DNA from: Pezizomycotina sp. ARF18 | Lineage: Eukaryota > Ascomycota | Reading direction: 5' to 3' | NCBI GenBank assembly: GCA_002224055.1 | Contig: AZLU01000025.1 | Span: 48,758 to 112,757, forward strand | DNA: 64,000 nt | Shown: positions 46,975-64,000 of the stretch, one piece after another | Position numbering within the stretch: the first letter of the stretch is position 1 | Layout: each line of letters opens with the position of its first letter | Made by a program: the position numbers and the translations under genes | The notes under the pieces: generated by a model | Told to the model about the DNA's origin: nothing | The model's input: only the letters and a program-made list of their open reading frames with translations | Database searches by the model: none

Positions 46975-48292
46975 TTGTTAATAATAATACCTGCTTCAAC
47001 CATCAGCGTCCATAACATCGTCACGTCCACGTACTTTGACTTCCTTCCCGTTGAATTAATTGTCGACATCTTCTCGCAGGTCAACCTCGCAGACCTGCTC
47101 TCGTTGCGGTTGACGAGCCATGCATTTCAGATGATAATTGACGAGAATGAAGGTTGGGCCCACCAAACTCCAAAGAAATAGCGATTTACTTCGTTGATAA
47201 GTGGAAGAGAGCTCCACATGAGGCCCTATATTCGATAAGGGACCGTTTCTCCGATATATTATCTCTCGACCTGAGAGTGCTCCTGTCTGTCTGATGTTGA
47301 CCGACTTTCTCTTTTAATAGGCGCTATTGCTCGTCGTTTTATTCCGATTAACCGCCTAGATATTCTCACCAGACTATTCCCACCTCCGATATTACGGACG
47401 ACGGGGTCCAGAGGTATAGCTTACGATACCTGACGCAACTGAAGAAGAGGGAATACCTGTGCTCGGAGTTATCTGGCTTTTTAGCCGAAAGAATAGTAGA
47501 GCAGCGGCTATCGGATAACAGCAATATGATGATGGGAGGGAAGAAGAGGAGAAAAGAAGTTGTGCTGGACGTTACAAGACGGGTCAAGTCGATACTTACG
47601 AGCCGGATGTGCGCTTGCCGAACTCTTTTTTGCGTCGAACCAATATTCTTTTTTTTTTTTTTTTAGATTCTATTTTTCGTAAGAAGATTTCTGCTGACAT
47701 GTTCTTTTTGTACACACTTGTTATAGGTATTTCGTCTGCTTTTTCATGTCGACGCACTCGCAGGAGCGGAAGCGGCTCATGGAATCGCTGGCGATAGACT
47801 ACGACCAGAGTGGGGTCCTGCTGCCGCCGAACGAGCAGAGGACGCTGAACATACGGTCCCAGATATCGATAATATCTGTGTTCGACAGCGCCGACCTGGT
47901 GACGACGCACCACACCATGACGCTGCTGGTCCAGCACATGCGCCTGGCGACGGCCCCCGAGCCGCCGCATTTCAAAAACGACGAGTGGATATCCATGCTG
48001 CTGCACCAGTCCGGTATGCAGCGTATAGTCGAGTTTTTCGCGGCGGACGGGCCGAAGGCTCCGAGGCTTTACGAATGGCGTTCATAAAGAGGATGCAGAA
48101 CGATTGGGACGACTGGAGAAGAGGAGCATAAACGACAAGCCGCCGCCGATCCGGGAGTTTTGGTTCGATGCGGCGCTCGAGGCCATGTCGAAGAGGGGTT
48201 TGATACCTCACTCGCCTGATCTCGTGGCTGTTCCGCAGCTTGGGGTGTTTGTCAATATCGGATGTACGAAGTGCTTGCAATCCGGACAATGA
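46975..48292 (+). CDS. F-box domain protein
   Basis: This is a probable SCF substrate receptor. The first recognisable exon carries an F-box: YFDFLPVELIVDIFSQV, then LADLLSLRLTSHAF (47035-47130). Later blocks are RYSLRYLTQLKKREYLCSEL and GFLAERIVEQRLSD (about 47410-47520), VVLDVTRRVKSILTSR, then after an intron with a poly-T tract SQERKRLMESLAIDYDQSGV through HFKNDEWISMLLHQSGMQRI (about 47755-48025). The end is KRMQNDWDDWRR, SINDKPPPIREFWFDAALE and VAVPQLGVFVNIGCTK, with the stop at 48290-48292. This overall plan occurs in Pezizomycotina F-box proteins of unknown substrate. No ATG is visible just before the F-box, so a short upstream first exon is likely, perhaps ending before the AG at about 47005. 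Confidence 0.75.
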
Positions 48293-49206
48293 AATTCCTT
48301 TTCTTCCTTCTTCTTTCTGGAATGGTTTGGTCGTTCGTGCCTGTCGTTATGTCCTGTCTCATCGCGTCTTTCGGGTTTGCTTTCATTTTTGCCTTTCTTT
48401 TTTCAGATGCGTTGAATGTGCATTCATATATTTTTTCAAGTACACATACCTCTTGGCGGTGTTCATTTGAATAGTATTGGCTTAATGTCTGAAATACAAA
48501 GCGTTAGGTGTGTTTGTTGATAATGGGGTGATCTGGACGTTTTCCAATTGCGTGTCGAAGGAAGCACATACGCTCACAGGTGAACATATAAAAGTCTAGC
48601 CAGGAGACTATCTAAATCTTCGTCCCCCCCCCCCCAAAAAAAAAAAAAAAAAGAAAAAAAAAAGTATCACCCCGACAGATATCACTTATAGCATCTCTTG
48701 CGTCATATATCAGAGTTTTGTCTCGAAAGCCCTACAAGACTTCCAAGCGAAAAGGTTAATATATCTGCGCTATTTAGCGTCAATTAAAATATCATTTATT
48801 CATTGAAAAATGCTACTCTATGATTTATGAACGAGAGAACCACTTGGAAGAAACGCTTATTATCCATCTTGGAAATATATAAAGGACCCAAGAAAAGTTG
48901 CATAGAGCAAGAGTGTACGGGAATAGGAAAAGCAATTAGAAAAACACCAATAACCAATACGAGGACAACAATCTCGAATTTGAAGAGGAAAAAGGAAATG
49001 ATGATAAACCGGACAATTCGGACTTTAAGCTTAATAAAAAAAAAAAAAAAAAAAAAAAAAAGTACACGATCCAAAAGTACGGAGCCAGCGATGCCAATTT
49101 CTCAACTACGAGGCATGTCTACAAAGTTAAGATGACCAAAAAAGATGAATGAGAGTGCTGTTGTATGTTGAGTCATGCAAGCAAGTTTTCCGTGATTTTT
49201 TTACAT
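48293..49206. other. Convergent spacer between the F-box gene and the SLC35F6-like gene
   Basis: Two genes converge here. The spacer holds a C run followed by poly-A at 48627-48655 and about 24 A at 49036-49061. A 102-codon K/T-rich open stretch (48827-49135) spans the A run and looks noncoding. Confidence 0.5.
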
Positions 49207-50917
49207 TCAAAGATGCTCGATTACGTCTTCCTCAATTATAGGGTCGGGAGTAACCCTTGGCATGCATGCCTTGAGGGAGGCTGGATGACTGGTTGAAGAG
49301 GAAGGTTCCATAGACGAGGAGGGCGAAACCACCAAGCTGCAAGAAGGTAAACTTCTCCATCCGAGAGAAGCGAGATAATCCAAATGACCAATGTCCTGGA
49401 AGTATCAATGACGGAGCGGGCGGTAGCGGACACGATCGGGTAACTGAGATACGAAGAAGTTGAAAGCTTATATAATTGAAAGATAAAACTTTGTTAGAAA
49501 ACCCAAGGCGAAAGAGCGATAATGAAAATGTACATTGAGGGAAGACTTACCAATCGAGATCATAATCAAGAAGGAGGAAAGAGCAACGTCAGGCTGAGCG
49601 AGTTCCCTCAAGCCTTCCTTCGCATCAAAGTAACCGTAACGTCCGGCTTCGGTTTGACCAATGATGAGGTGGAGGATGAACATTCCAATAACAGTAACCG
49701 AGAATCCAAAAACGCCCTCCAGCCGACGACCTTGAGCGTGCGAGCGCGTACTTTTCGAGGATATTGCTCTTCCAGAACGAATTGAGTTGCCGTGAAAACT
49801 GCGCACGCGCGATAAGAAGTACTCCTACTACCGACCTGAGAACAGCGTCATCCGTCGCGAGGGCGACAACCTTCTGCTGAGCCTCCGTTCGTCTTGATGG
49901 TACAGAGCTCCAGAGAGACCGACGACGGCAACACCAAGGACTACGACGAATAGTGCGAACCATTGGAATGCGTAGAGGTGACGTTTTCAAGAACAATATG
50001 CTAAACAGTCCGACGAAGAGAACGAGCGCACCACGGGTCATCTGGTAGACTATTTTTTTTTGTTCGAATGGTTATTAGTGACTATGTTTTTCTTATACGG
50101 TTTCAAAACTACGAATTACGGGAAGTTGAAACATACTGCTTGCGGCAACGAACAAAAGGCCGACGTTCATCAAAGTTGTTCCACAGATATCGCAGACTAT
50201 ATGGAAAATAAGACTATTAGCATTGAATTCTAAGGAGTTGAATTAACAAAGGCTTCAGGCGCGACGCACTAGATGGTAAAGCCAACAAAAGGACTCTGGC
50301 ACCACGAAGTTCCGGTGCTCAGGGTGGTTCGAAACCATCGCTTTTACAGACGGACGGCGCTGGCGCAAGGGCCTAGTCTCCGGATCCGGCACTTCCCCAT
50401 CTTCTTCGCCGGCGACCGCTCGAGTTATCATTCGTAGTAACAGTTTCGTAGCCGGCACCGTGCTTCCGCCGCTCATTCCACGCATCGAAGAGGGAAAACA
50501 GACCGACGAGGATCCAAGCAGCCATTTCTCCGATGAACATTTGGAGGCTGGCAGATCGTTAAAAATTAGCATGTGGAGGCTCCACTGATTAAAATTTCCC
50601 TTTTTCGGTCGTACTCACGTTTGTATTACAGGTGCTCGAATTTCTCCCTATTGCTGGGATTAGGATCGTCGCAAGTTCCGGACACAGAAGCTGATCCTGA
50701 TACTTCGTCAAGAGGGTGTTCGACGAACCCGTCAAAAGCATACCGGCGCTATAGAAATAATTATCGTAAAAAGATGACCATGTTAGCCGTTGAAGCACTA
50801 CACTCCGATACACCAACCTCTAACCCTGTCATAGCCGATAGCTATTGAGATAAGGTAAGGGAACCGGGGGATGCTTGATTACGTACACTAGCACCAGTAT
50901 CAGACTGATGAAGGCAT
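49207..50917 (-). CDS. SLC35F6-like drug/metabolite transporter
   Basis: This is a multi-pass membrane protein of the drug/metabolite transporter superfamily. SLC35F6 relatives sit in lysosomal, vacuolar or Golgi membranes. A probable first exon begins at the ATG at 50917 and reads (after one inferred base) MAFISLILVLV. The next exon has AGMLLTGSSNTLLTKYQDQL, the diagnostic start of this family. Further blocks are FIGEMAAWI (about 50525), MTRGALVLFVGLFSILFLK (about 49985-50041), FGFSVTVIGMFILHLIIGQT (about 49660-49715) and SSFLIMISIG. The end is SATARSVIDTSRTLVIWIIS (about 49380-49430), GGFALLVYGTFLFNQSS and VTPDPIIEEDVIEHL with the stop at 49207. Repeated hydrophobic helices fit the usual 10-TM layout. 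The transported substrate is unknown. Several frame breaks are present. Confidence 0.82.
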
Positions 50918-51841
50918 GATGGCGTGTGTTGAATGGAACAGAGACGCTTGTTTTATTTATATGATCCTTTCCCCTTCTTTACACGGAAATCATGGGAGAT
51001 GGGCCGATTGTAATAAATGATGAAAGGGTAAAAAAAAGGGGACGAAGACTCGAAGCGTCGCTTATTTACTTCCCGGAAGGGTTATAGACAAAGCGGATAC
51101 ATGATAACAACAAAAAAGAATGAAAAATATCACTAACAATAATAATAGACGGATGGATTAATCGAGAAAAGAAAGAAAAATAAATAAATAAGGAGAGGAG
51201 AGTAAAAAATCAAATAGAAATAAAGAATATTCAAGTGGTTGGGCAGTTGTTTTAAGACAAAGTAGTTTTGTGTCCCCGTGGTTATGTGAGATTCCGGAAT
51301 AAGACCCGTGATGATGATGATGACAACGAGAGGGAAAAGAAGAAGAGAAGAGAGAAGAAGAGAGGAAATAAACAAAGAGAAGGGAAAGCGACTCCTCCCA
51401 ACGGGGGTCTTCGGGGAATTTCTCTATTTTTGGGGGCTGAAAGATGGTAGCTACCGTAGGAGAGGTGTATAAGAAAGAAGAAGCAAGGGAAAAGGATGGA
51501 TAAAAAGTACTTTAAGTATTTTATTTTTCTTTTTTCGGAGTTCAATGCGGCGGAGTTAAGTGGAAAGGCTGATAAAATAACGCTAGTAAGGCTATAGAGA
51601 GAGCTAAAGAGTCCAAGACTTTCAAACAACGTTAATCCCCCTATATATCTCTCTCTCCAGGCTGAGGTGCGTTGCGTCTGTCGTCTGTGCGGCTGCTATT
51701 AAAGAAGGGATCGGCCTGTATATAGAAACTTAATAGACAACCAACTAATAAAGTATGTACTTGCTGCTAGCTGCTACTTGTAGTAAATGTTTCTATTTTT
51801 TGTTTGATCAGAGTAATTATTACTAAGTAAGTGGTATATCA

Positions 51842-51873
<32 letters not shown>

Positions 51874-52165
51874 CATCATCTTTTTATTCCTCTATACTCT
51901 ACCAAGTATATAAATAAATACCTACTTACTTAGAGTAAATAAATACTTAATAATATATAGTAAAATACCACTTTATTTCTTTGTGGGTAAATTCTTTTTT
52001 TTTTTTTTTTTTTTTTTGAAATTCCATTTAGCACACAGCCTCGTAATTACATCTCCAATCCAATATCCATAAGCTCAATCTACTTGACCATTCCCAAGCT
52101 ATATATATAACAATAACTCTTTATTAATACAATCGATCGCCTGCCCTTAGATCTATAAGCGCAAA
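50918..52165. other. Divergent spacer between the SLC35F6-like gene and the parvulin
   Basis: This AT-rich promoter region holds a (TTA)n repeat at about 51842-51873, a run of about 25 T at 51993-52017, an AG-rich tract at about 51330-51390 and a CT stretch near 51643-51658. I see no gene. Confidence 0.55.
51842..51873. repeat. (TTA)n microsatellite
   Basis: About 10 ATT units in the spacer upstream of the parvulin. Confidence 0.9.
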
Positions 52166-52822
52166 ATGCCTCCAAAGGGAAAGGCGGAGACAAGGGCGGC
52201 TCGAAAGGCAAAGATATAAAGACAAAGGCGCAAAACAGATGACAAGGAAAAGGGCGGTAAAGGCGGTAAACAGAAGGGAGGCAATAGTATCAATGTTAGT
52301 ATACTCTTTTTTTTTCCTTCTCCTTTTTATAAGATATACTCTCACCGACCAATACTTACTTGAAATGTGATTCTAGGTTCGTCATATATTGACGGAGAAG
52401 CACAGCAAAGCTATGGAGGTATAATATCTCTCTATGGAAGCAACGCTACAATTCAGCGCTTCTAACTACTTCGCCGGGTCGGAAAAAAAATCTGCAGGCG
52501 ATAGAAAGACTCTGCAATGGTGAAAAGTTCGACGCCGTAGCGCGGGAGATGAGCGAGGACAAGGCTCGCCAGGGTGGGTCGCTCGGCTGGAGAACGAAGG
52601 GTTCTCTTCTGCCCGAGTTCGAAAAAGCCGCCTACGAGCTGGAAGTAAGCACGACGGACAAGCCGATATACACGAATCCTCCGATAAAGACCAGCGCAGG
52701 ATATCATATAATACAAGTGAGCTGCCCTTCTTTCTTCATTCATGTTTTTTCATGCATAATATATATTTTTTGATTGCTAAAAAGAAGCCCTTTTTCAAAC
52801 GTAGGTTGAGGGAAGAAAGTAA
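52166..52822 (+). CDS. Pin4-type parvulin peptidyl-prolyl cis/trans isomerase
   Basis: Parvulins catalyse proline isomerisation. The Pin4/Par14 type has a basic K/G-rich tail plus one PPIase domain and works in the nucleus and ribosome assembly. Exon 1 (52166-52294) is the tail, MPPKGKA then KGGKQKGGNSIN, with at least one lost base. Exon 2 (52377-52418) encodes VRHILTEKHSKAME. Exon 3 (52498-52716) encodes AIERLCNGEKFDAVAREMSE, DKARQGGSLGWRTKGSLLPE, FEKAAYELEV and TSAGYHIIQ. Exon 4 (52805-52822) encodes VEGRK and the stop. Introns are 82, 79 and 88 nt with GT/AG ends. Exons 2-4 are intact, unlike most of the window. The last intron and exons 3-4 recur in decayed form 4.3 kb downstream. Confidence 0.93.
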
Positions 52823-54335
52823 AATATCAGATTTGCGGTTCCACAAAGATTTTGATTACCTGAGTAGGTATTAGCACACTCTGAAATAAGTTGCACGCTT
52901 ATAGTTCAAGTTTCCTTGTCAACTCTTCATTCTTTCCAAGTAGTTTTCTAATTCTTTATTTCTCTTTCTCCCTTCTTGTTCTTCCCGTCCATGAACTTGA
53001 GCATCATGGCTGTCTTTGAAACTAGGAAGAAGTAGGCTAGAAATGAATCTACAAGGACATGAAGCTACGATGATCAAAGAATAAAAAGTGGAATTTGGTC
53101 ATAGAGCCAAAGAGAGCTCGAGCAAGGCAGCGCATACTGGCATACTGGGATTGTCCCTCTTATTACATGTACATATATGGTACAGTCTCAGTTTAAGCAT
53201 GCAAGTGCGAAAGTAGAATCGCGCGTCCAAAAAAAATCGGCAGAAAAGATCTCATGTCCAGTCAAGTTGAATGATCAACGATTTATTGGTGCTAGCAGAT
53301 ATTCGATTCTGAGAACAATACGCCAATATCAACCATATGGCCGTCCATATTTGGAGCAGTTCACCTGTGAACTTTGGTTAAAAATTGGTGTTTCGACGTT
53401 AAGGTTAGACGTCCTTTGCCGTTTCGTACATATACCCGTAGTATCTAGATGGTTGCTGGAAGTGTACGACGATGAAAAATGGTCGTATTTGGCCAATTGG
53501 GACATCTTCAAGGGGGAAAAACGGGAGATATATAGCACATTTTGAAAGAAGGGAAGATGCGTAACCCGCGAGTTTTCCCTCGATGGTTTCAATTCTATTG
53601 TTGTTGTAGGTTTTTTTTTTTTGTTTGTTTGTTTGTTTGTTTTGCGCCATTCACGTATATCGCCAGGGTTACCTTCACGATGTCGGCCAACGATGCCCAA
53701 ATAATAATAATAATAATAATAACATAAAAAAAAAATAGCAACACTCTCTCTAGGAAATTTTTTAATTATTTCATGATCATACCTCCTCAAAAAAAGATAT
53801 CAATGAGAAAGCCGACAATCTTCGATCCTCAAAACCATCCCCTCCTACCTCAAGTTTCCATGTCCGTTTCTTGAAAAGACGTAGATTCAGAGGCGAAGGC
53901 TGAGCTCACGATCATACGAACGTCAATAAACGTCCGCCTTCAAGGGCGGGATTTTTTCTGTTACCACTTCACCCTCATCTCCACGAAATACAAAGCGAGA
54001 GACGCGGTGTATAGACCTCAGAAAAAACACCAAATTAGACCTACGAGAAGAACAAGTTCACCAACTCTCTCGGTTGAATATATAAAGAGCTAGCTGGGCG
54101 GTTGGTATGTTAGTGGCACCTTCCACCTTGATAAATATGTACCTAGTACATTGCTGACGATATCGCAGATTAGTAAGTCGAGTACCTGCTCAGACTTTTC
54201 TGTAGGAACACATATCTCCTAATCATACCCACCTCTTTTTGTCCCTTTCGCTAGAGCTCTATGCTAGAATAAACACTCATCCAGCTCAAAAGCCATGGAT
54301 GAATAGTATACTAACTGATATGCCTAAGGCGGAAG
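52823..54335. other. Spacer between the parvulin and the GIY-YIG-like gene
   Basis: This stretch of 1.5 kb has mixed composition. It contains a 122-codon open stretch (listed separately), TTTG units at 53621-53641 and an AAT repeat at about 53701-53722. It could be the left part of an inserted unit. Confidence 0.4.
53177..53545 (+). CDS. Hypothetical small protein in the putative inserted unit
   Basis: This ATG-started frame of 122 codons is unbroken and not low-complexity. It begins MVQSQFKHASAKVESR and includes RQYQPYGRPYLEQFTCELWL and WLLEVYDDEKWSYLANWDIF. I recognise no family, signal peptide or membrane helix. It lies between the parvulin stop and the GIY-YIG-like gene. The opposite strand is also open in part, so coding status is uncertain. 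Confidence 0.3.
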   Translation: MVQSQFKHASAKVESRVQKKSAEKISCPVKLNDQRFIGASRYSILRTIRQYQPYGRPYLEQFTCELWLKIGVSTLRLDVLCRFVHIPVVSRWLLEVYDDEKWSYLANWDIFKGEKREIYSTF

Positions 54336-56390
54336 ATGGGGGATTCTCGCCGGCCTCCTAAGAAGCACGACCAGGACTGGACGGTATATATGAAGCACAT
54401 CCACGATCAGGAAGGAATTGAGACATTGTTGCTCTGGGAGAGGTCCAAGAACTGGCATTACTTCGTTCCGCAAAGACACGGGTTTCCGACAGAGGCACAA
54501 GGGGTAAACTTCTCTCATTGATCCTTCCTTGAAGCAGGAAGGAGAAGAGAAAACGTTGATAAATATCTAGTTGTTTATGAGTGTGTTTACGTTAATTTAT
54601 TTCGTCATGTTTGATGATTGTACTTTAAGTAAAGTTTTGTACTATACGGTATTCCTTTTCTTTTCCTGTCTTTTCTTTCCTGTCTTTTTTTTCCTGTCTT
54701 TTTTTTTTCTGTCTTTCCTTTCCTGTCTTTCCTTTCCTGTCTTTCCTTTCCTATCTTTTCTGCCTTGCGCTTTCTCCCTTGCCATCCTTCGTTCTTTCCT
54801 TTTGTCTTTTCTTCTTTGACTTTCTTCCTTCCCCTTTCTCATTTGCCCTTTCTTCTTTATCATTTCTTTCTCATTTTTCTCTGAAAATATCTGTCTATCT
54901 ACGAAGATATGTGCTAACAAACTTCAGCAGACGGGAAGCTACGGACGATTATTGGTTCGGGGAGACGAATCACAGATAGAATTACCGAAAAGTATGAGGA
55001 CGATGAGGCCGTAGTTGGTATGCCCTACGCTGCTCGACATCAAGCTGTTGTCGATGCCTACGACCGTTTACATAGGGACGACAACCCGGACGAGCTATGG
55101 CGTATGCTCACCAAGGCGGGAAAATATCTCTTCACAGCCGAAGCTACTGACTGTCACGCACTCGTCGGCATGGCCAGTCCTCTGTATAAAATTCCAAAGG
55201 ACATTGGAGTCTATGTTCTGCTGAATAGCGAACCCGGCAACGAGCAGGCTGGTATTACATTTTCGCGCTACAGCGGAATTACTGTCGGAGAGCATGGACT
55301 CAATGTGCGGGTTCATAATCATATGCAGGATTCTCACAGAGCAAAGTCCTCGCAGAAGGTCCACAACGAGCCGGTCGGAGATACCGCCGTTGTTGTCATA
55401 GCTCGCACATCCAACAGGACCATTCAAAACGCTGCGATCATGCAAATCATCGAGCAGTCAGTAATACTGCAGCTGGACTCGTGCGGTAGAGACCGATTTC
55501 GACAATTCATAGATCCTGGCATCGCAAACCCCATTCCTGTACTTATGGTGCGAATAAACTTAATGTCTCTCGGGTTAGAAAAGTTTTTTGCAGCCGGTTT
55601 GGTCGCTAAACAAAGGGTTGAAGAACTGAATGGTGCTGGTACCGAGTCTTTGTTCTATCTAAGCGAGGACACGTCACCCGAGGTCGGATCGGCCAAAGTC
55701 ATCGTGGGAGGATTGAAGATATATTTGGAGATAAGAGCAGATAAGGTACAGGTAGCTTGGAGCTCCTTTTGGGATGTTCTGGAATCCGCTGCAAGCGTGC
55801 GGGTACGGCTACGCGAAGATGGCTACCAGCTGTCTGTCGAGCAGGGTGGATGGGTTAATGTGGTCGCGGACGAGTGCTACTACAGGTACCTACACGAGCC
55901 TGCAGTAGCCGTCGTTGCGAGTTTGAAGAGCATAGGAAAGGAGTTACGATCGATACGGCAATGTACCCTTCAGGAAATAAATTGAGTAGCCTTCGCTCTT
56001 CGAGCCGAGCTGCAAGCTCAAGGAGAGGTTGCTCCACCAGAGTCCTGAGGTATGCGAGTAGCTGGGAAGCTCGTGTCAAAAATTACATGGAATACAATGC
56101 CAAGTTAGCGAAAGAAATTTCCGAGAATCAACAAAAAGAGCTAGAGGGAACGTTGTCCATTACATATAGCAAGCTAAATGCCGATGGGTCTTTGAATCCA
56201 AGGACCAATATCCGCTAATGAATCTGGCAAAGGCCAGAAACGAAAAGCTGGTCGAAACGTCAAGGCGACGACGGATCCTGTAGTACTGCGCGAAGCGCCA
56301 ACGAGGAAGGGAAACGCAAAGCCTATAAAGAGAAGAAAAAGGCACTTCGAAGCAAGCCAGCAAACAGCTTTAAATATTCAAACCAACTGA
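54336..56390 (+). CDS. GIY-YIG-like putative nuclease
   Basis: Exon 1 (54336-54503) reads MGDSRRPPKKHDQDWTVYM and WHYFVPQRHGFPTEAQG. A 427-nt intron filled with pyrimidine repeats follows. The main exon (from about 54931) stays open to 55985, the longest unbroken frame in the window. At about 55200-55470 it shows the GIY-YIG order: DIGVYVLLN, then RYSGITVGEHGLNVRVHNHM (a YxG strand and an Arg-His helix), and AAIMQIIEQSVI with a candidate metal-binding Glu. Later come GLEKFFAAG, RVRLREDGYQLSVEQGGWVN and, after one or two frame changes near 55985 and 56190, a charged helix SSWEARVKNYMEYNAKLAKE and a very basic end KPIKRRKRHFEASQQT (stop 56388-56390). The basic tail suggests nuclear or DNA binding. 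Joining exon 1 to exon 2 also needs a one-base shift. The nuclease assignment rests on motif order alone. Confidence 0.55.
54504..54930 (+). other. Long intron with a tandem pyrimidine repeat
   Basis: Donor GTAAAC, acceptor CAG at 54930. Positions about 54655-54765 are a tandem array of roughly 13-nt units of the type CTTTCCTTTCCTG, giving an extreme polypyrimidine tract. It is several times longer than the other introns here. Confidence 0.6.
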
Positions 56391-56815
56391 AATAAGAAAT
56401 AAGGAGCTCCAGATATTGAAGCAACTCAACAAAGGCAATTTGCGTAAGTTTCGCCGTTATGTCTGATTTCCTTTGTGCGCCAATTTCGCTGATCACTTTA
56501 CAGTACGATTTCCGTTGCGTTCTTTTTTCGCATTTCTATGTGACTATTGCGGAATTAAGCTCCGCAAACGCTGACGATAACAAACTTCGACTCCACAAGA
56601 ATAATTTTTTTTTTTTTTTAAACCTTCAATGTTTAAAAACGACGTTTTTTAGGGTACCTTATAGTTCTTTATTAAGTTACTATCTTTTGCAAAATTTCGC
56701 CTGTGAATATAAGAAATGAAGCGGCCAAATGTCATTCAAAACGCCTTTTCTCTCATTGTCCTATAATTGGATCCTCCATGTGGAATATTTGTTTCCCCTA
56801 TATTTTTCTGCTCAG
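56391..56815. other. Spacer between the GIY-YIG-like gene and the parvulin remnant
   Basis: AT-rich, with a T run at 56608-56619. A stretch around 56695-56730 weakly resembles parvulin exon 2 but not enough to claim. I see no gene. Confidence 0.4.
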
Positions 56816-57104
56816 GCAATAGTTGTCTGCCACAAATCATGGACTGGGTTTTATTGCGAAAATAGGAGCATTCCAATATTTTACAAGTTGGCTTCCTTTG
56901 TGTTTCTTGTCTTTTATTAGGATCTTATATTCTGCGTTTTTTATAAAAATAGAGCAGGCAGGCGTTTTTTTAGATGTACCACATAATACTGGTGGGCTGT
57001 CCCTCTCTCCTTTCTGACTCATGTCTCTCTATCTGTCTTACAAACAAGCGAATTAGTTTACGATTGCTAAAAAATGTTTTTAACAGGTGGAGGGAAGAAA
57101 GTGA
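56816..57104 (+). pseudogene. Decayed copy of the parvulin 3' end (last two exons and last intron)
   Basis: This segment aligns in order with 52498-52822. The left edge TTCTGCTCAG-GCAATAG matches TCTGCAG-GCGATAG at the start of parvulin exon 3. The exon end TACCACATAATACTG-GTGGGCTG matches TATCATATAATACAA-GTGAGCTG, preserving YHII and the donor. The intron shares GATTGCTAAAAA near its 3' end. The last exon at 57087-57104 encodes VEGRK plus a stop, identical in protein to 52805-52822 but with GTG for GTT and TGA for TAA. The exon 3 equivalent is only 176 nt against 219 and has lost most of its sense, so the copy is dead as a gene. The middle of the exon aligns poorly. Confidence 0.6.
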
Positions 57105-57641
57105 AATACAGATCATTATTGATCTCGCGGCGTCACATATACGTGCATTCCTGGGAGCTGGAGTTGTAGATATTTCGATGGCAGAAGAATCAACGATATT
57201 GATCCTTTTGCCGCTTTAAGGCTGAGTTGGACAAGTATGGTTCACTTGCAGCTGGCTTCATATCGTGCACAATTACTACTGTTGTCCTAACATACCTTAA
57301 GGAAACATCAAGATGTATATTCTCTAGGGAAAATCAATAGGAAGGGAGAAGATGAATAGTAACGAACAGGACCAACGTGCAGCTAACTTCTAGCTACGAG
57401 TCCGGAATTTAATGCATTGAAAAGCATCATTTGTAGTATCGAAGTTAACTACAGATGTAAAATAAAGGAAATTTTGAGATTAAGCAGCTACAATTAAAGA
57501 CAAATATATGACTGGATATTTCGAAAAATGCTTTGTCGCTAAAATTGCACTAAACAATAACAACATCAACATGCACAGCAATCACAGGGAACGAACTCCA
57601 GCACCGCACAAGCCTATGTCATAATCGTTCATTGTCAGCGT
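57105..57641. other. Spacer between the parvulin remnant and sea4
   Basis: This region lies 3' of the minus-strand sea4 gene and includes the right flank of the parvulin remnant. A + strand frame running on from the remnant stays open to 57219 but has no recognisable motif. Confidence 0.45.
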
Positions 57642-60600
57642 TTATGAAACAGTGAACCACAAAGAGAAAAGATGTAGGGTATTCTTACAGTCACAGTCTG
57701 GAACAGGACAAAGCGTGTGCTTCGAGAACCATCTCTAGCATGCCCTGCGTGGGTTCCGTGGTTACAACTCAGGCAAAGTTAAACCACCGATCGAAGCTTC
57801 TTCCTTGCTGGCTCGTCCACGCCACCGCCACCGCCGGTTTCCTTTCCTGCTGACGCAGACTTGTCGTTTTGCTGGTTCGGAAGGTAGTTTGGTGTTCCGA
57901 GTACAGGAGACACACTGCGCAACGGGGAAGAGGTTTTCGACAGTTCGGACACAGCGTTGCCTTGTGGGAGAACCCGCCATGCTAGCCTGCGAGAACGGGA
58001 CGCTGACTTGCTGGCCGTCCTTTATGCGAGAACCCGGAGTGACGGATGTGTGCGCGATACTCTATTATAAGAGGGGAAAGCGTTAGACATTATGACACAA
58101 AAGCCCCTTGAGAAGATACCTTGTTGGTTACTCACTCTATCGCAAAAATTGCAGCGAACGTAAACTTGGCGCTGCACAGTTTCTATGGTCATGTTCCCGC
58201 TCCTGTCCTTCGAGGTTTTGCCTCTCGCAATATCGAACCTTGCTCGGGCATGGAAAAAACGCCATTTGTTCAGGAGCTCACGGTAACTATGGAAGATAAT
58301 TAGCAAAAAAAAAAAAAAAAAAAAAAAAAGACAAGTAATAGCGATTAGCGGAGTCCCGTCGGCTTGCCTTTCTACCCAAACTCTACCCTCTGATCGGTAA
58401 AGTATCTGGGCACCGCAAAGCTCGCCACAAGCGCTGCGGTCTGTACGTCACTTGTCCGGTTGATGTACTCCTGCAATAGATCGATAGTTTTCTCGTTATA
58501 CCCGTGAGCAAGATTCCTTCCGGTTCTCCCATTTGATGACTGTAGCCGTAAATTCGTCGATGTATGTACCGAGCTGGAAAACCCCAATGATAAGCATACA
58601 CGATACCAGTCTAAAATATGATACTACGATTGGCCTTACCTCGTCATCGTTCAAGAATCGCAACGCAATGCCAAGCCTCTCCCTGATAGGTAGTCCAATC
58701 GATCGTCCAAATACATCCTGCCAGTCGCCGTTGGTCACGAATGCGAAAATAGCCCGACTATAAGGGTCATCCAAATCCGTTGACATCGACCTGCACATTT
58801 CCTTCCATGTGTTACTTCCCAACGAATCGTTATCTTCGTCGGAGCTGTCGCTCATACGGTGAGTGTAGTATCCCGCGACGGCGGTCGACATAAGCTTCAT
58901 CTGCCTCCCGCCTTTAGATAAAGCTTTATGCAACGCTGTATATTGCCGTGGAAAAGGGCCCACCCGCAGCCTTCGCGATATCCCCCTCTTCTCGTAACGC
59001 TCGAGTTGGGTTTCGAGCGCAGACTCGTCTTCGAAGTCCCACCCGCACATGCCAGACCAGCGCGCGCTGTTCCGGAAATGCCGTTCGGCCCTGTACCGGC
59101 CGCGCCTGTTGTAGCGTTCGTTTATTTTCTGGACTGCTACGGAAAAGGCTCTCGTGTCTGGGACGCCGGCTCCGGGAGGATTCGAGACTGAGGGACGGTG
59201 GATCTCCATATCCCGTAGACGCCTAGGTACGAAAGGTCCAAGCCGTTCGAGACCATGCCTTCCTCATCAACGGCTTCTTGCGCACCCTGGAGCCAGCGCC
59301 ACATCTCCTTTAGCTCCATTCTTCTTTTTCGATGAGGATGAACGTTCTTGCCACACTGCATTATACGTAAATTAGTATAAATATTTCGATTGTAGTGTGG
59401 AAAAGATAGTCTTATACATACGTTCATCTCATAGCCCTGTTCAGCCCTCCGCCGCATCTGAACGGATATGTCAATGCGGAGGGTGTCTGTTGGAGCGAAG
59501 AGGTAATCTTCAGGGTGATCGGAGTAAACCCTCGGGGGTTTCTGGAAGGGGTCTTGATTCGCATCGGTATCCCCTTCACCGCCGGATGAATCGTCGTTTT
59601 CTCGACTTCTCTCTGTGTCGACCCTTGATATTATGTGGTTCGGCTCCGCAACCCGGAGAGCTTTGTGGATGGCGCCGGGAGCGTCCTGATAACATCTTCA
59701 TGAGACACTACGAAATTGTTCTTGAACCAAAAGATAGAGCCGGCGTGAAAGCCGGTAAGGAGTGGACGTAGACCCCACTCCTAGATAGAGCTATTATGCG
59801 ATAGTGGTTCAGCGAACCCCCGTCGGAAATCCAGTCGAACGACGCGATGCCTTCATTTTGCCTATCAGTTGTTCGAGGTGGACCTTTGGTAGATTTTTTT
59901 GTCAGTATTCAACTTTGCCAATAGTCGAACGCGAAGGAAAAATTTTATCACATGCAAGCTAGATACGCCGTACATTCCGTCGTCCTTGTAACAAAGAGCT
60001 TATCTTGAGATTATTCCCTTGCCGTAAATCCACCACCGAATTCTCCCTCTCACGGAACGAGCGATTGCTGCAACACCACCAGACCCTCCGCCGACAGGAA
60101 GGTCCCCAAGCGTCCCAAGTTCCATATCTTCAACAACTGCGAGCTGCTTAAAACTCCAAAGGCACCACTCCTATCCCTACAGGACTCAGACTGATTATAG
60201 TAGACGACGGGCTCGGCTTGCCAAAGTTAAGGATAGGATCGTGGCCGCCCGACCTTGCAAACCGCCGTCCCAAACCGCCATGTAACCGTCGTCCGAGCAC
60301 GATGCAAAGTAATTTTGATCCCTGTCAATTGTAAGCCCGTGAACGAGCCGCGACGGGAAGTTGAGTGAAGGCGCCCTGGCGCTATCCCGGAGGTCGAATG
60401 CGCGGATGTACTTGTTACCCACACCCGCTATGAGGACCTCCGGCTGGTCTTTGAAAAACTGTATGGACGATACCATCTCGGAGCTCGCGAGTTGTCTATA
60501 CGGCTGGCGCGCTAGGTTCTGGCTCGCCGATATCGACGAAGGCGTCGAGATCGACGGTGTCGGCAGAAGCTGCGAGTTCACGTCCCATATGTTCAAGCAA

Positions 60601-61304
60601 AAGTCGTTCCTCACCTTATCCAACCCTATGGCGAGGTACCCGGAAGTAGAAAAGGCTACCGCATTGCAACCTCGTTGGTGCTTCACGGGCAGTATTACCT
60701 CTTGGTTCGTCTTTTGAGACGGCGTCATCCGTAAGACGATACATTCTCCACCGGATTTTCCAACCGCCGCAAGGTCTGCCATAGGAACCAAACAAAAGAT
60801 CATGAAATAGTGCGGAGGTTAGTCGAAATTCGTCCTGTTTGATTTCCTGAGGTAAAAATATATAGGGTTGAGCGTACCGGTTTGAATTGGTGACCAATCG
60901 AAGCACTTTTCGAATCGCAGACCTCACCAGGCTTAGCACCAAACACTTTCTCACAGGAGAGGTTTCTTTACCCTCCAAGTAATATCTGGTATATAAGTAA
61001 GGAACTCGAGGGTTTCAGGTTCCAACCTTGATGTACGGGATCTTTGTCTTCTGAACACCGGTTTATAGCTTATTTCACCCTGTTTCTATACGTTGTTCCG
61101 TTTGACATGTTGGCTCATAAGCTAGAAATATACACTCCCAATATCTTCCAAGAGGTTGATACGACCAGCAGGCTAGCGCACCTCTTTGTATTCTGTGACG
61201 TCGTACAGCCGAACTTCGTGATCGGTCGAACTAATGGTCATAAATTGCTGGCCAGTCGCGTCGGAGTGAGGCGACCACCTCACGAAGTCGGAGACAGTAT
61301 TCAT
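57642..61304 (-). CDS. sea4: SEA4/Mio, WD40 subunit of the SEACAT (GATOR2) complex
   Basis: SEA4/Mio scaffolds SEACAT/GATOR2 at the vacuole and promotes TORC1 signalling in response to amino acids. The start MNTVSDFVRWSPHSDATGQQ at 61304 is the family N-terminus, and STDHEVRLYDVTEYKEV follows. WD40 blades are clear at 60195-60803: HQRGCNAVAFSTSGYLAIGL, DKVRNDFCLNIWDVNSQ, VLIAGVGNKYIRAFDLRD and SCSDDGYMAVWDGG. The alpha-solenoid region appears as ERLGIALRFLNDDEV, LGTYIDEFTATVIKW and LLQEYINRTSDVQTAALVAS (about 58430-58680). The C-terminal zinc module has RQVYVRCNFC, CPNCRKPLPRCAVCLLYSEH, CNHGTHAGHAR and CPVPDCDC-type cysteines (57690-58130). The stop is at 57642. Introns and several frame breaks occur, but the full Mio domain order is present. 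Confidence 0.9.
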
Positions 61305-62644
61305 GGTTGCTCACTTCGCGCGGCTCCGCCGAGGGCAGAGAGCCTTTGTTTTCCTATCGGAAGAAATATTGTTAATTCCCCTGCTCTTCTATATGCTTTT
61401 TTGAAATTCGACCCAAAACCTTGAATGAGCCCTTCCTTACCTTGGCTTTCTCCCAACCTCAGATTTCCCGTTCCTTGGTTTTGTGGTTTAACTTGTAGAA
61501 TGATTGGATCGCAACAACCCTTCGGGAGATGCTGGATATAAGACAAGAAGAATTGCCAATTAAAAGAAAAGAAAAAAAAAAAAAGAAAGAAAGAAAGAAA
61601 GGACAAAAACCCTTGGGAAGTTGTGTAAGTGTAGGTAGGTTCCCTTAGGAAATGTAAAGATCGTTGTCCCAATCTAATTGATAAAAAAGAGTAGCTCTCT
61701 GCGCACATCTATCGTTCGGCCCTAAAAGAAGCGTCTGGCACAGTACCGGAACTTACCATATTAATAACACCCACCCATGACTAACGATTCTCTCAATTTA
61801 CTTGAGCTACGCGATCAAGCTACAGCTACCATGCCTACCAACGGTCTCGAAGTGTCACCATCACTTATACTTCCAACTTCTAAATAACTCGAAAATATAA
61901 CAGTAAAATAAAGCTCAAGCGTAGTTATATATATAAGCCATTGTATAATTATTCGAATGGTTTACGGCTAGTACTCTTTTAATAGTACCCCAGGCATGTT
62001 TCTATACGGTAGAAATATATATATTATTAAAAATGATAGCTTTGAAACCTTTCAGTATCCATCAAAGCTAAATTGAACGACTAACTTCTATTTCTAGTTC
62101 TAAAGGTAGCTGGATATAGTTATTCGAAAATTAAGACTTATTGATTATCGCTAGCTCGGCTTAGCTATTTAATGCTATGTACAACATGACATCGTGACAG
62201 TATTACTTGCATGAGAGTGCAGGTATTCACGTAGCATCATGACAATAATGCGTGATATATAAAAAAAAAAAGTATTCGTTAAAACGAAGAAATAAGAAAA
62301 CCAACGCCCAGTATTCAAACACCAAGGAACAAGCGAAGGAAAGAAAAAAAAAAAGAGAAGGAGAATGCAAAAAAATTGCAAAGAGGAATGGTCTCTTCTG
62401 CCATGAATGTAAGACGTAAAAACAAGTGCACTGACCAGGACTGGTGCCAAATTGGCTGTAAAGGTGATTGAAGCAACAACGGAAAAAAAAAGGGAAGAAA
62501 GGCCAATCGACATTGGCGATAAAGCAGGGAGATTTGCTTCTAGAAATATACGAAAGTTCCATATTCCTGAAAAGCTATTTTGGGCGAGAATGAAAAGCGA
62601 ATCCGTAGAATGTCCCGGATGACCGACTATAATCGGTTATGCCT
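61305..62644. other. Spacer between cysteine dioxygenase and sea4
   Basis: Two genes on the same strand are separated by 1.3 kb: the 3' flank of the dioxygenase gene and the promoter of sea4. It contains an A run plus AAAG units at 61565-61600 and AT-rich DNA. I see no gene. Confidence 0.5.
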
Positions 62645-63584
62645 CTAGGCACAAGCATCGGCGCCTTTGCCGCTCTTACCGCACTGCCGATAGCCATGGT
62701 ACTGTAGTATGCAGCCATACTGATTGTGGTTGGATTTGCCCGTTTTAGGTTGAAAGTGTGCAGCCCTCTGATAAGATGTTGTTAATAAGATGAATTTTTC
62801 TCGAAAAAAAAAAAATCGCTTCCTAGCAGGATCTCAATACTCACTTTCTTCGATGTAAGGCGATGTTGGAGGCTTACGGAATATTATGAGGCTCCATTTT
62901 CGACTTATGGATACCAAGCTATAGAATTTCGTGTCAATATAAATATATTAATTTAATGTTGAAATAAACTTACGTCGTCGTTGATATACGCAAACCTCGC
63001 ATCTCCAAATCTGGTAATCTCTTTTGACTTTAATGTTCCTCAACACCGGTTTTGGCCAATGTATTTTGTCTCCACAAGCTCCCCCTTGAGTACTCGCATT
63101 ATACAGGTGCATTTTTGGTCGTGGACTAGGAGCTTTTTCCCGATCCATACCATGATAACCTGATTGATTAAAAGCATCTGTTAGTCCTCGGCAATTCAAG
63201 CTATTTTTTTCCCTCTATAACTTAGAAGCTGAAGGTGTTTATTATTATTAAGTAAAATAGTAGACATGTATTTTACATACCAACGCATTGGCGTTGATAT
63301 CATCCACAGGTTTCTGGTATAGTGCCTGCTGAGCTATGAATGAGTACTTTTCCACTCGCTTTCGTCGCTAACGTATTCGCCTAAAACGGCCTGGAGCTTG
63401 CTGATCTACATCCTCGCTCTTCAGGTCCCGGTGCTCGCCTAAGATCTCGCGATCTTCTCCACGAGCTGTTCAAAGGCGTTGAATCTCTAGTTTTGTTGCT
63501 GGAGAAGTGGGCAGCGGCCGCGGTCTGCTTGACGGAGTAGTTTTGCACTGTCCAATAGATCACGGTGACGACGGCAGGGGCCAT
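62645..63584 (-). CDS. cdo1: Cysteine dioxygenase
   Basis: Cysteine dioxygenase is a cytosolic non-haem iron cupin that oxidises cysteine to cysteine sulfinate. The start MAPAVVTVIYWTVQNYS is at 63584. In shifted frames follow FNAFEQLVEKIA, ILGEHRDLKSEDVDQQ, YVSDESEW and YTRNL with DDINANA (about 63290-63500). After an intron comes the cupin core: VHDQ in place of VHDH, CIMRVLKGELVETKY and KEITRFGDARFAYINDD (about 62990-63165). The next exon begins LGIHK, carrying the third iron-binding His (about 62920). The last exon reads PKTGKSNHNQYGCILQ and ends GADACA (62645). The apparent loss of the second His can be explained by a missing base, since the frame slips right there. Four exons and several one-base losses are inferred. 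The identity is sound. Confidence 0.87.
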
Positions 63585-64000
63585 TGCGTGATTGGGGTGG
63601 CTCGACGAAATAAAAAGAGGTGGGGAGAGATTTTCCGCCGTATTATTAATCAATAATGCAAGCAAAATGAAAATTCAACTGCTTTTCTCTCAGCAAAGTG
63701 AAGAAATATATATATATATATATATATATCTATTAAAAATAATTATTTATTTATAAATTATTTTATTCTTATATGGTTTTAGATTTGATATAAAAAGGCT
63801 CTGACGTCCTGAGTCTTGCAAAATGAATATCTGGTGGTGGATAACGACGACTAACGGCGACGACGATGGTTGAAGAATGAGGCTTTGCTTTGGTTCAAAC
63901 CTCCTCCTTTCTTTCGCCCCTTCTCTTCGCCTTTCTACTTCCCCTTCTTAAATAATACTCCTTTCCTTTTCTACGCCGACTTTCTCGGATCTTTCCCTTC
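63585..64000. other. Promoter side of cysteine dioxygenase
   Basis: Upstream flank of the dioxygenase gene, with a (TA)n run at 63706-63729 and a CT-rich stretch from about 63900 to the window end. No gene is visible. Confidence 0.5.
63706..63729. repeat. (TA)n microsatellite
   Basis: About 12 TA units, roughly 130 nt upstream of the dioxygenase start. Confidence 0.9.

Follow-up and report, generated by a model that had tools for sequence, protein, structure and literature searches.

A repeated parvulin 3′ end on either side of an orphan gene with GIY-YIG-like motif order in Pezizomycotina sp. ARF18

The 3′ end of a parvulin gene occurs twice on one contig of Pezizomycotina sp. ARF18, as a direct repeat ∼4.3 kb apart; the repeat has sharp bounds, and an open frame lies between its two copies. 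We see about an even chance that it is an old short local duplication, to which the orphan gene between the copies need not be linked, and weigh this below against a homing element and other origins. The window is the whole stretch of DNA analyzed (64,000 nucleotides; C25:48758-112757), positions are counted from its first base, and the genome searched comprises 46.4 Mb in 408 contigs. The features of the region are:

52166-52822, plus strand: Par14/PIN4-type parvulin gene (PF00639, E = 1.2e-15, hand-joined protein)
52166-52294, 52377-52418, 52498-52716 and 52805-52822, plus strand: parvulin exons 1 (with frame breaks), 2, 3 and 4
52295-52376, 52419-52497 and 52717-52804, plus strand: parvulin introns
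52702-52832, plus strand: copy 1 of the parvulin 3′ end, by pairwise alignment
52833-54335, no strand: spacer, 40% GC, no gene recognized
54336-54506, plus strand: tentative first exon of the 355-codon gene, or a separate gene fragment (54355-54470 common to contig C244)
54918-55985, plus strand: open frame of 355 codons, stop to stop, whose residues 97-179 show a GIY-YIG-like order of motifs (GVY ... YSG ... R ... H ... E)
55986-56388, plus strand: possible C-terminal tail of the 355-residue protein, coding-looking by eye, with a lysine-rich end
56977-57113, plus strand: copy 2 of the parvulin 3′ end, made up of YHIIL, an intron (56992-57086), VEGRK-stop (57087-57104) and nine further bases
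58496-60818 (outer limits approximate), minus strand: MIOS (SEA/GATOR2) neighbor gene, convergent to the parvulin (PF21719, PF21720)

The parvulin gene and the quality of the assembly

The host gene is the single parvulin match genome-wide (up to E = 10) and encodes a PPIC-type domain; its closest solved structure is human PIN4, of which entries 1eq3 and 3ui4 match with E ∼ 5e-35 over a 94-residue core. Exons 2-4, when joined, give a clean open frame (VRHIL...YHIIQ/VEGRK-stop). The preliminary description had called this copy intact, a word that needs qualifying for exon 1, which is Lys/Gly-rich, contains a TAA in frame 0, and is readable only with the frame switches 0-2-1-0. Over its whole length, which is divisible by three, exon 1 has three frame changes.

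Two HSP70 genes are broken in a similar way (coordinates of the pieces interpreted by hand). The one on contig C49 (53036-54818) falls into seven pieces that span model positions 5-597 and abut or nearly abut, with six frame changes and no room for introns; the one on C70 (64385-65993) is likewise split into abutting pieces in different frames. This suggests an assembly rich in single-base indel errors. Because the HSP70 genes are split in this manner, the frame breaks in parvulin exon 1 and in the tail of the orphan gene are likely assembly errors as well, and they are therefore no guide to what is "intact" or "decayed".

On the far side of the repeat, the MIOS gene is recognized by PF21719 (E = 5.4e-11, 58496-59263) and PF21720 (E = 3.5e-12, 60198-60818). 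Two overlapping frames at 59140-59263 suggest, by eye, another single-base frame break in this gene. The spacer that follows the parvulin matches, besides itself, only two short stretches of the genome (38 and 35 bases), which are simple sequence on manual reading.

The 3′ end of the parvulin is present twice

Pairwise alignment, proposed in the preliminary description as a check on the repeat, was significant: 52702-52832 aligned with 56977-57113 at a score of 88, against a maximum of 54 in 1000 dinucleotide shuffles and of 43 in 408 other 601-base stretches of the window searched on both strands. The copies are 66% identical and comprise the YHII codons, the last intron (88 bases in copy 1, 95 in copy 2), the VEGRK-stop exon, and 10 bases (copy 1) or nine bases (copy 2) past the stop codon. 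The GT/AG splice sites, YHII and VEGRK-stop, said from the first to be conserved downstream, are indeed present in both copies. The signal is not confined to one part, as the pair score was reached by none of 2000 mononucleotide shuffles for the last intron alone, and by none of 2000 shuffles for the last exon plus 3′-UTR alone. Since the intron is present in both copies, an origin of copy 2 as a retrocopy is rejected.

The repeat had been drawn longer, from 52498-52822 to 56816-57104, and the part at 56816-56976 has no similarity to the parvulin. Upstream of copy 2, nothing corresponds to the remainder of exon 3 (equal scores in 144 of 500 shuffles and in 93 of 105 other stretches of the window); the 204 exon-3 bases before the repeat are matched as well by 1551 of 2000 mononucleotide shuffles, and the nearest 60 bases by 98 of 2000. 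We therefore reject an extension back to 52498/56816. Downstream of the two copies there is likewise no convincing similarity (120 bases: 887 of 2000 shuffles as good; 300 bases: 223 of 2000).

A self-comparison of the window by BLASTN, with low-complexity filtering, returned three matches below E = 1e-3. The parvulin pair (48.3 bits, complexity 0.86) is the sole high-complexity match; it is equaled in score by a repeat of complexity 0.45, and the third match has complexity 0.63.

The 11 codons shared by the two copies differ by silent changes in Y (TAT/TAC), H (CAT/CAC), V (GTT/GTG) and the stop codon (TAA/TGA), and by a single replacement (CAA/CTG, Q/L), with no indel. Relative to the M of human PIN4, the L codon of copy 2 differs by one base and the Q codon of copy 1 by three. 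Taking the intron as our clock (identical at 59 of 80 ungapped columns; seven indels, by eye), we simulated the decay of one neutral lineage (8000 runs per rate) and counted the runs in which the splice sites stayed intact and the codons had gained no indel and no more than one replacement. At rates of 0.10, 0.13 and 0.20 per site, P was 0.069, 0.021 and 0.002, respectively, with the likelier rates giving 0.02-0.07; these values come from few codons (11) and favor homing too much, because the pair was chosen for looking conserved. They hint, weakly, that copy 2 may have been a working gene end during much of the divergence.

The gene between the copies

The 355-codon frame lies between the two 3′ ends, where the preliminary description had placed it, and is the longest frame in the window (GC 0.50). 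From the parvulin stop codon it is 2.1 kb to this main frame and 1.5 kb to the tentative first exon, which joins the next exon out of frame in this assembly (examined by hand). The possible tail contains an in-frame TGA and two frame changes. Within the tentative first exon, 116 bases (54355-54470) match a gene-like stretch on another contig (L027 4987-5108, C244:43786-43907), with 78% identity over the first 94 bases and in the same reading frame (PKKH.QDWTV.MK..HDQE). A polypyrimidine tandem repeat (54656-54745) lies in what is presumed to be an intron of the orphan gene, and a similar stretch occurs on C230. The 19.6 kb searched (up to E = 1e-6) gave further matches only in the polypyrimidine repeat (one) and at 48617-48668 (seven, all short).

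Protein searches of the genome to E = 10 gave no relative of the orphan gene, of which one copy only was found, and no relative was confirmed in viral contigs or prokaryote genomes by single-sequence scans, which find close relatives only. A mitochondrial origin is unsupported, given a GC content of 0.50 against 0.27-0.31 in three GIY-YIG loci of C50 and C257 (L005, L010, L011) and no protein relative. Kinship with the GIY-YIG gene on C182 is likewise unsupported, as the pairwise score was reached by 323 of 1000 shuffles. No RNA families were found in 48000-64000, and no tRNAs in the whole window.

The description of the product as GIY-YIG-like holds for the order of motifs and not for profiles. 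The order GVY-YSG-R-H-E (residues 97-179) was met by 13 of 20,000 shuffles, and its GVY...YSG part occurs in no other frame of at least 60 residues in the window and twelve ∼10-kb loci (115,688 residues); the pattern was written after the orphan protein had been seen, and is insensitive, failing on the frames of C181 and C182, both of which Pfam detects. In Pfam, the orphan protein has no PF01541 match to E = 10 and one match in all, a meaningless one (E = 0.15); NCBIfam, PHROGs and PDB gave no match. As positive controls, the C181 frame, which we take to be SLX1-like, was found at 4.8e-7, and the C182 gene at 0.002, below the cut-off. A custom GIY-YIG profile built from 14 pieces (12 of C50 and C257, plus C182 and C181) did not recognize the orphan protein, which was outscored by ∼58 of 1000 shuffles. 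Nor was there a match to the LAGLIDADG/HO family in Pfam up to E = 10, in a search in which the HMMER filters drop most weak matches.

Two single-sequence AlphaFold models reached pLDDT of 34.5 and 38.2. The second has a strand-strand-strand-helix arrangement around the motif that would fit a GIY-YIG fold, and carries no weight at a pLDDT of 38.2; Foldseek with this model gave a best E of 1.2, and no GIY-YIG nuclease is named among the 50 of 57 matches listed. What suggests the GIY-YIG label is thus the motif order only.

Local repeats and GIY-YIG genes elsewhere in the genome

For a base rate of local repeats we used 12 control loci of 9901 bases (118,812 bases) from the same genome, which gave 12 self-matches below E = 1e-3. 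Repeats of at least 48 bits and complexity of at least 0.8 were present in three of the 12 loci: an array (L035), a 142-base tandem pair (L041), and a 99-base inverted pair at 72% identity (L043). Repeats of such strength are thus not rare in this genome. The loci were not a random sample: L027, L030, L031 and L035 contain a GIY-YIG gene or the sequence in common with the orphan's tentative first exon, and L036-L038 overlap the window wholly or partly; excluding these last three, strong repeats are present in three of nine loci. The base rate of comparable repeats is also softer than three of 12 implies, because two of the control repeats are tandem and one inverted, and the parvulin pair, dispersed and direct, has no counterpart among them. 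No gene tail bracketing another gene was recognized among the repeats of the control sample.

A genome-wide search with PF01541 gave 37 matches (up to E = 1), with 32 on C50, three on C257 and one each on C181 and C182; the orphan gene is not among them. C50 exceeds 215 kb, abounds in GIY-YIG reading frames with internal TGA codons, and has 27% GC in one measured piece; it is apparently mitochondrial, a very large intron-rich genome. The gene on C182 (L031 4843-5295) and one on C22 (L035; C22:43629-43916, minus strand) are related GIY-YIG-like genes, 39% identical over 97 residues with stops, and are weakly seen by PF01541. Both loci are taken as nuclear (GC 0.476 at the C182 locus; C22 is a contig of 321 kb). 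The C182 locus has no self-repeat at E = 1e-3 within 9.9 kb, and the C22 gene is not bracketed within the same distance, having a 63-base pair with no recognizable gene end on one side and an array on the other.

Alternative explanations

Short segmental duplication, or templated repair insertion, leaves a small local copy of a genic piece that then drifts, and needs no nuclease. On the reading to which we give even chances, ∼137 bases (the end of exon 3, the last intron and the last exon) would have been copied 4.3 kb downstream by ordinary DNA repair, or by a partial tandem duplication followed by loss; the duplicate would have drifted afterwards, and the intervening orphan gene may be unconnected with the event. 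We infer this mechanism, the age and the absence of a link to the orphan. Such a duplication is favored because it requires no unproven enzyme and because small local repeats occur in this genome, with equal-score repeats in three of the 12 loci. The region itself holds a second short shared stretch (54355-54470 with C244), no profile tried recognizes the orphan as a nuclease, and the GIY-YIG-like loci on C182 and C22 are not bracketed (E = 1e-3, 9.9 kb). However, the control repeats are tandem or inverted and none is dispersed and direct, and four silent changes to one replacement, with no indel and intact splice sites, would be uncommon under neutral decay (P = 0.021, 0.069 or 0.002, by rate). 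Ordinary duplication also makes it a coincidence that a gene with nuclease-like motif order sits exactly between the copies. A WHO-type nuclear homing element at the parvulin would account for that position, and we regard it as possible at distinctly less than an even chance. A nuclease would cut the parvulin close to its YHII codons, repair templated by a chromosome with the element would bring in a cut-resistant 3′ end together with the nuclease gene, and the old 3′ end, displaced 4.3 kb downstream, would decay. The full host gene, the candidate gene and a 3′-only host fragment do lie on the same strand; the repeat is sharply bounded at either end and stops just beyond the stop codon, the sequences that follow the two copies being unrelated; and the codon differences are mostly silent, as expected if both ends were working genes before they met. 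The L codon (CTG) of copy 2 being nearer to the human PIN4 M than the Q codon (CAA) of copy 1 points the same way, as do the motif order met by 13 of 20,000 shuffles and the uniqueness of GVY...YSG in 115,688 residues, with the pattern written post hoc. The 66% identity of the copies is close to the 63.5% given in PMC3630166 for the two 3′ ends of the Glomus mitochondrial atp6 element. Homing is a reasonable hypothesis because of the 3′-only bounds, the silent changes and the motif order. Against it stand a nuclease that neither profile nor structure supports, an orphan gene that is single-copy as far as found in the genome, GIY-YIG-like loci on C182 and C22 without such a layout, the 1.5 kb and 2.1 kb that separate the host stop codon from the tentative first exon and from the main frame, respectively, and the local repeats of equal score elsewhere in the genome.

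A tandem duplication that took in the entire parvulin gene, whether or not it included the orphan gene, followed by loss or decay of the second copy to its last 137 bases, would agree with the shared strand and order and with the retained intron. It is improbable in our judgment, as nothing of exon 3, the longest coding part, can be traced upstream of YHII even though the intron can still be recognized, so that a deletion ending right there is required; a second copy of the gene between was also not found. We give hardly any credence to a mobile element that captured pieces of host genes (the parvulin tail and the C244 exon) and carried the orphan gene. Two host-gene pieces do flank the 355-codon frame, but there are no clear terminal repeats among the repeat families listed (20 of 26 direct and 25 of 139 inverted), which, apart from pieces of the parvulin pair, consist of simple sequence or short matches. 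Furthermore, no other copy turned up when the genome was searched at the DNA level, and a transposon with further copies is unsupported for the same reason.

Comparison with known mobile elements

The analogy drawn in the preliminary description, in which an endonuclease gene inserted in Allomyces atp6 brought a replacement 3′ end and displaced the original one, agrees with the account in PMC3630166. There, mobile ORFs in Glomus atp6, atp9, cox2 and nad3 and in Allomyces atp6 are described as an inserted C-terminus, an endonuclease ORF and a displaced native C-terminus. The parvulin locus is like them in layout, and the Glomus atp9 ORF is a GIY-YIG one; they differ in being mitochondrial, in having recognizable nuclease families, in comparison with a relative that carries the native gene, and in tested transcripts (PMC3630166). 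In Ustilago maydis, a nuclear GIY-YIG remnant lies in a RecQ helicase gene (PMC7593156), and is similar in that a GIY-YIG gene adjoins a host gene in a fungal nucleus. The remnant is unlike the present case in its mitochondrial origin and codon usage, in truncating its host and in being thought nonfunctional, and the account of it in PMC7593156 mentions no replacement 3′ end.

A nuclear homing element of this design had been put forward as new; published precedent exists in the yeast WHO elements at nuclear FBA1 (PMC7282813). As the layout is that of the Allomyces and Glomus mobile ORFs and of WHO, the homing idea is sound, but the design is not new, and if homing is true only the nuclease class and the host gene would be. 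Our literature search gave no paper that combines GIY-YIG and parvulin and, among the titles and abstracts listed, no other nuclear element of this design. It seems rather unlikely to us that a nuclear homing element with a highly diverged GIY-YIG nuclease spreads by replacing the parvulin 3′ end, from the end of exon 3 through the spliceosomal intron to the last exon, and displaces the old end downstream, the WHO strategy having been invented again with another nuclease class and host. If homing were shown, 3′-end replacement would have evolved repeatedly as a means by which selfish nucleases persist next to nuclear housekeeping genes, and would extend beyond the FBA1 of yeasts; a screen for 3′-only fragments could then be made among conserved genes of filamentous fungi; if not, the locus is a caution that a small duplication of a gene tail can mimic such an element.

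In Torulaspora and Lachancea, as described in PMC7282813, a WHO gene lies between a full-length FBA1 and a 3′ fragment derived from the previous 3′ end; the FBA1 fragments are without exception 3′ ends, and many begin near one place. WHO elements have a LAGLIDADG/HO-like nuclease, clusters, strain polymorphism and shown cleavage (PMC7282813), whereas the parvulin locus, known here from its sequence, has a candidate GIY-YIG-like gene in one copy and a spliceosomal intron inside the repeat. Because it has no HO/LAGLIDADG match, the orphan element would be at most a GIY-YIG analogue and not a WHO element as such. The layout is nevertheless of the WHO type in that a 3′-only fragment lies downstream of the complete parvulin. 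Both systems are nuclear, with a nuclease or nuclease-like gene downstream of a complete host gene and then a 3′-only fragment, and for both a replacement of the 3′ end has been proposed (for WHO, in PMC7282813).
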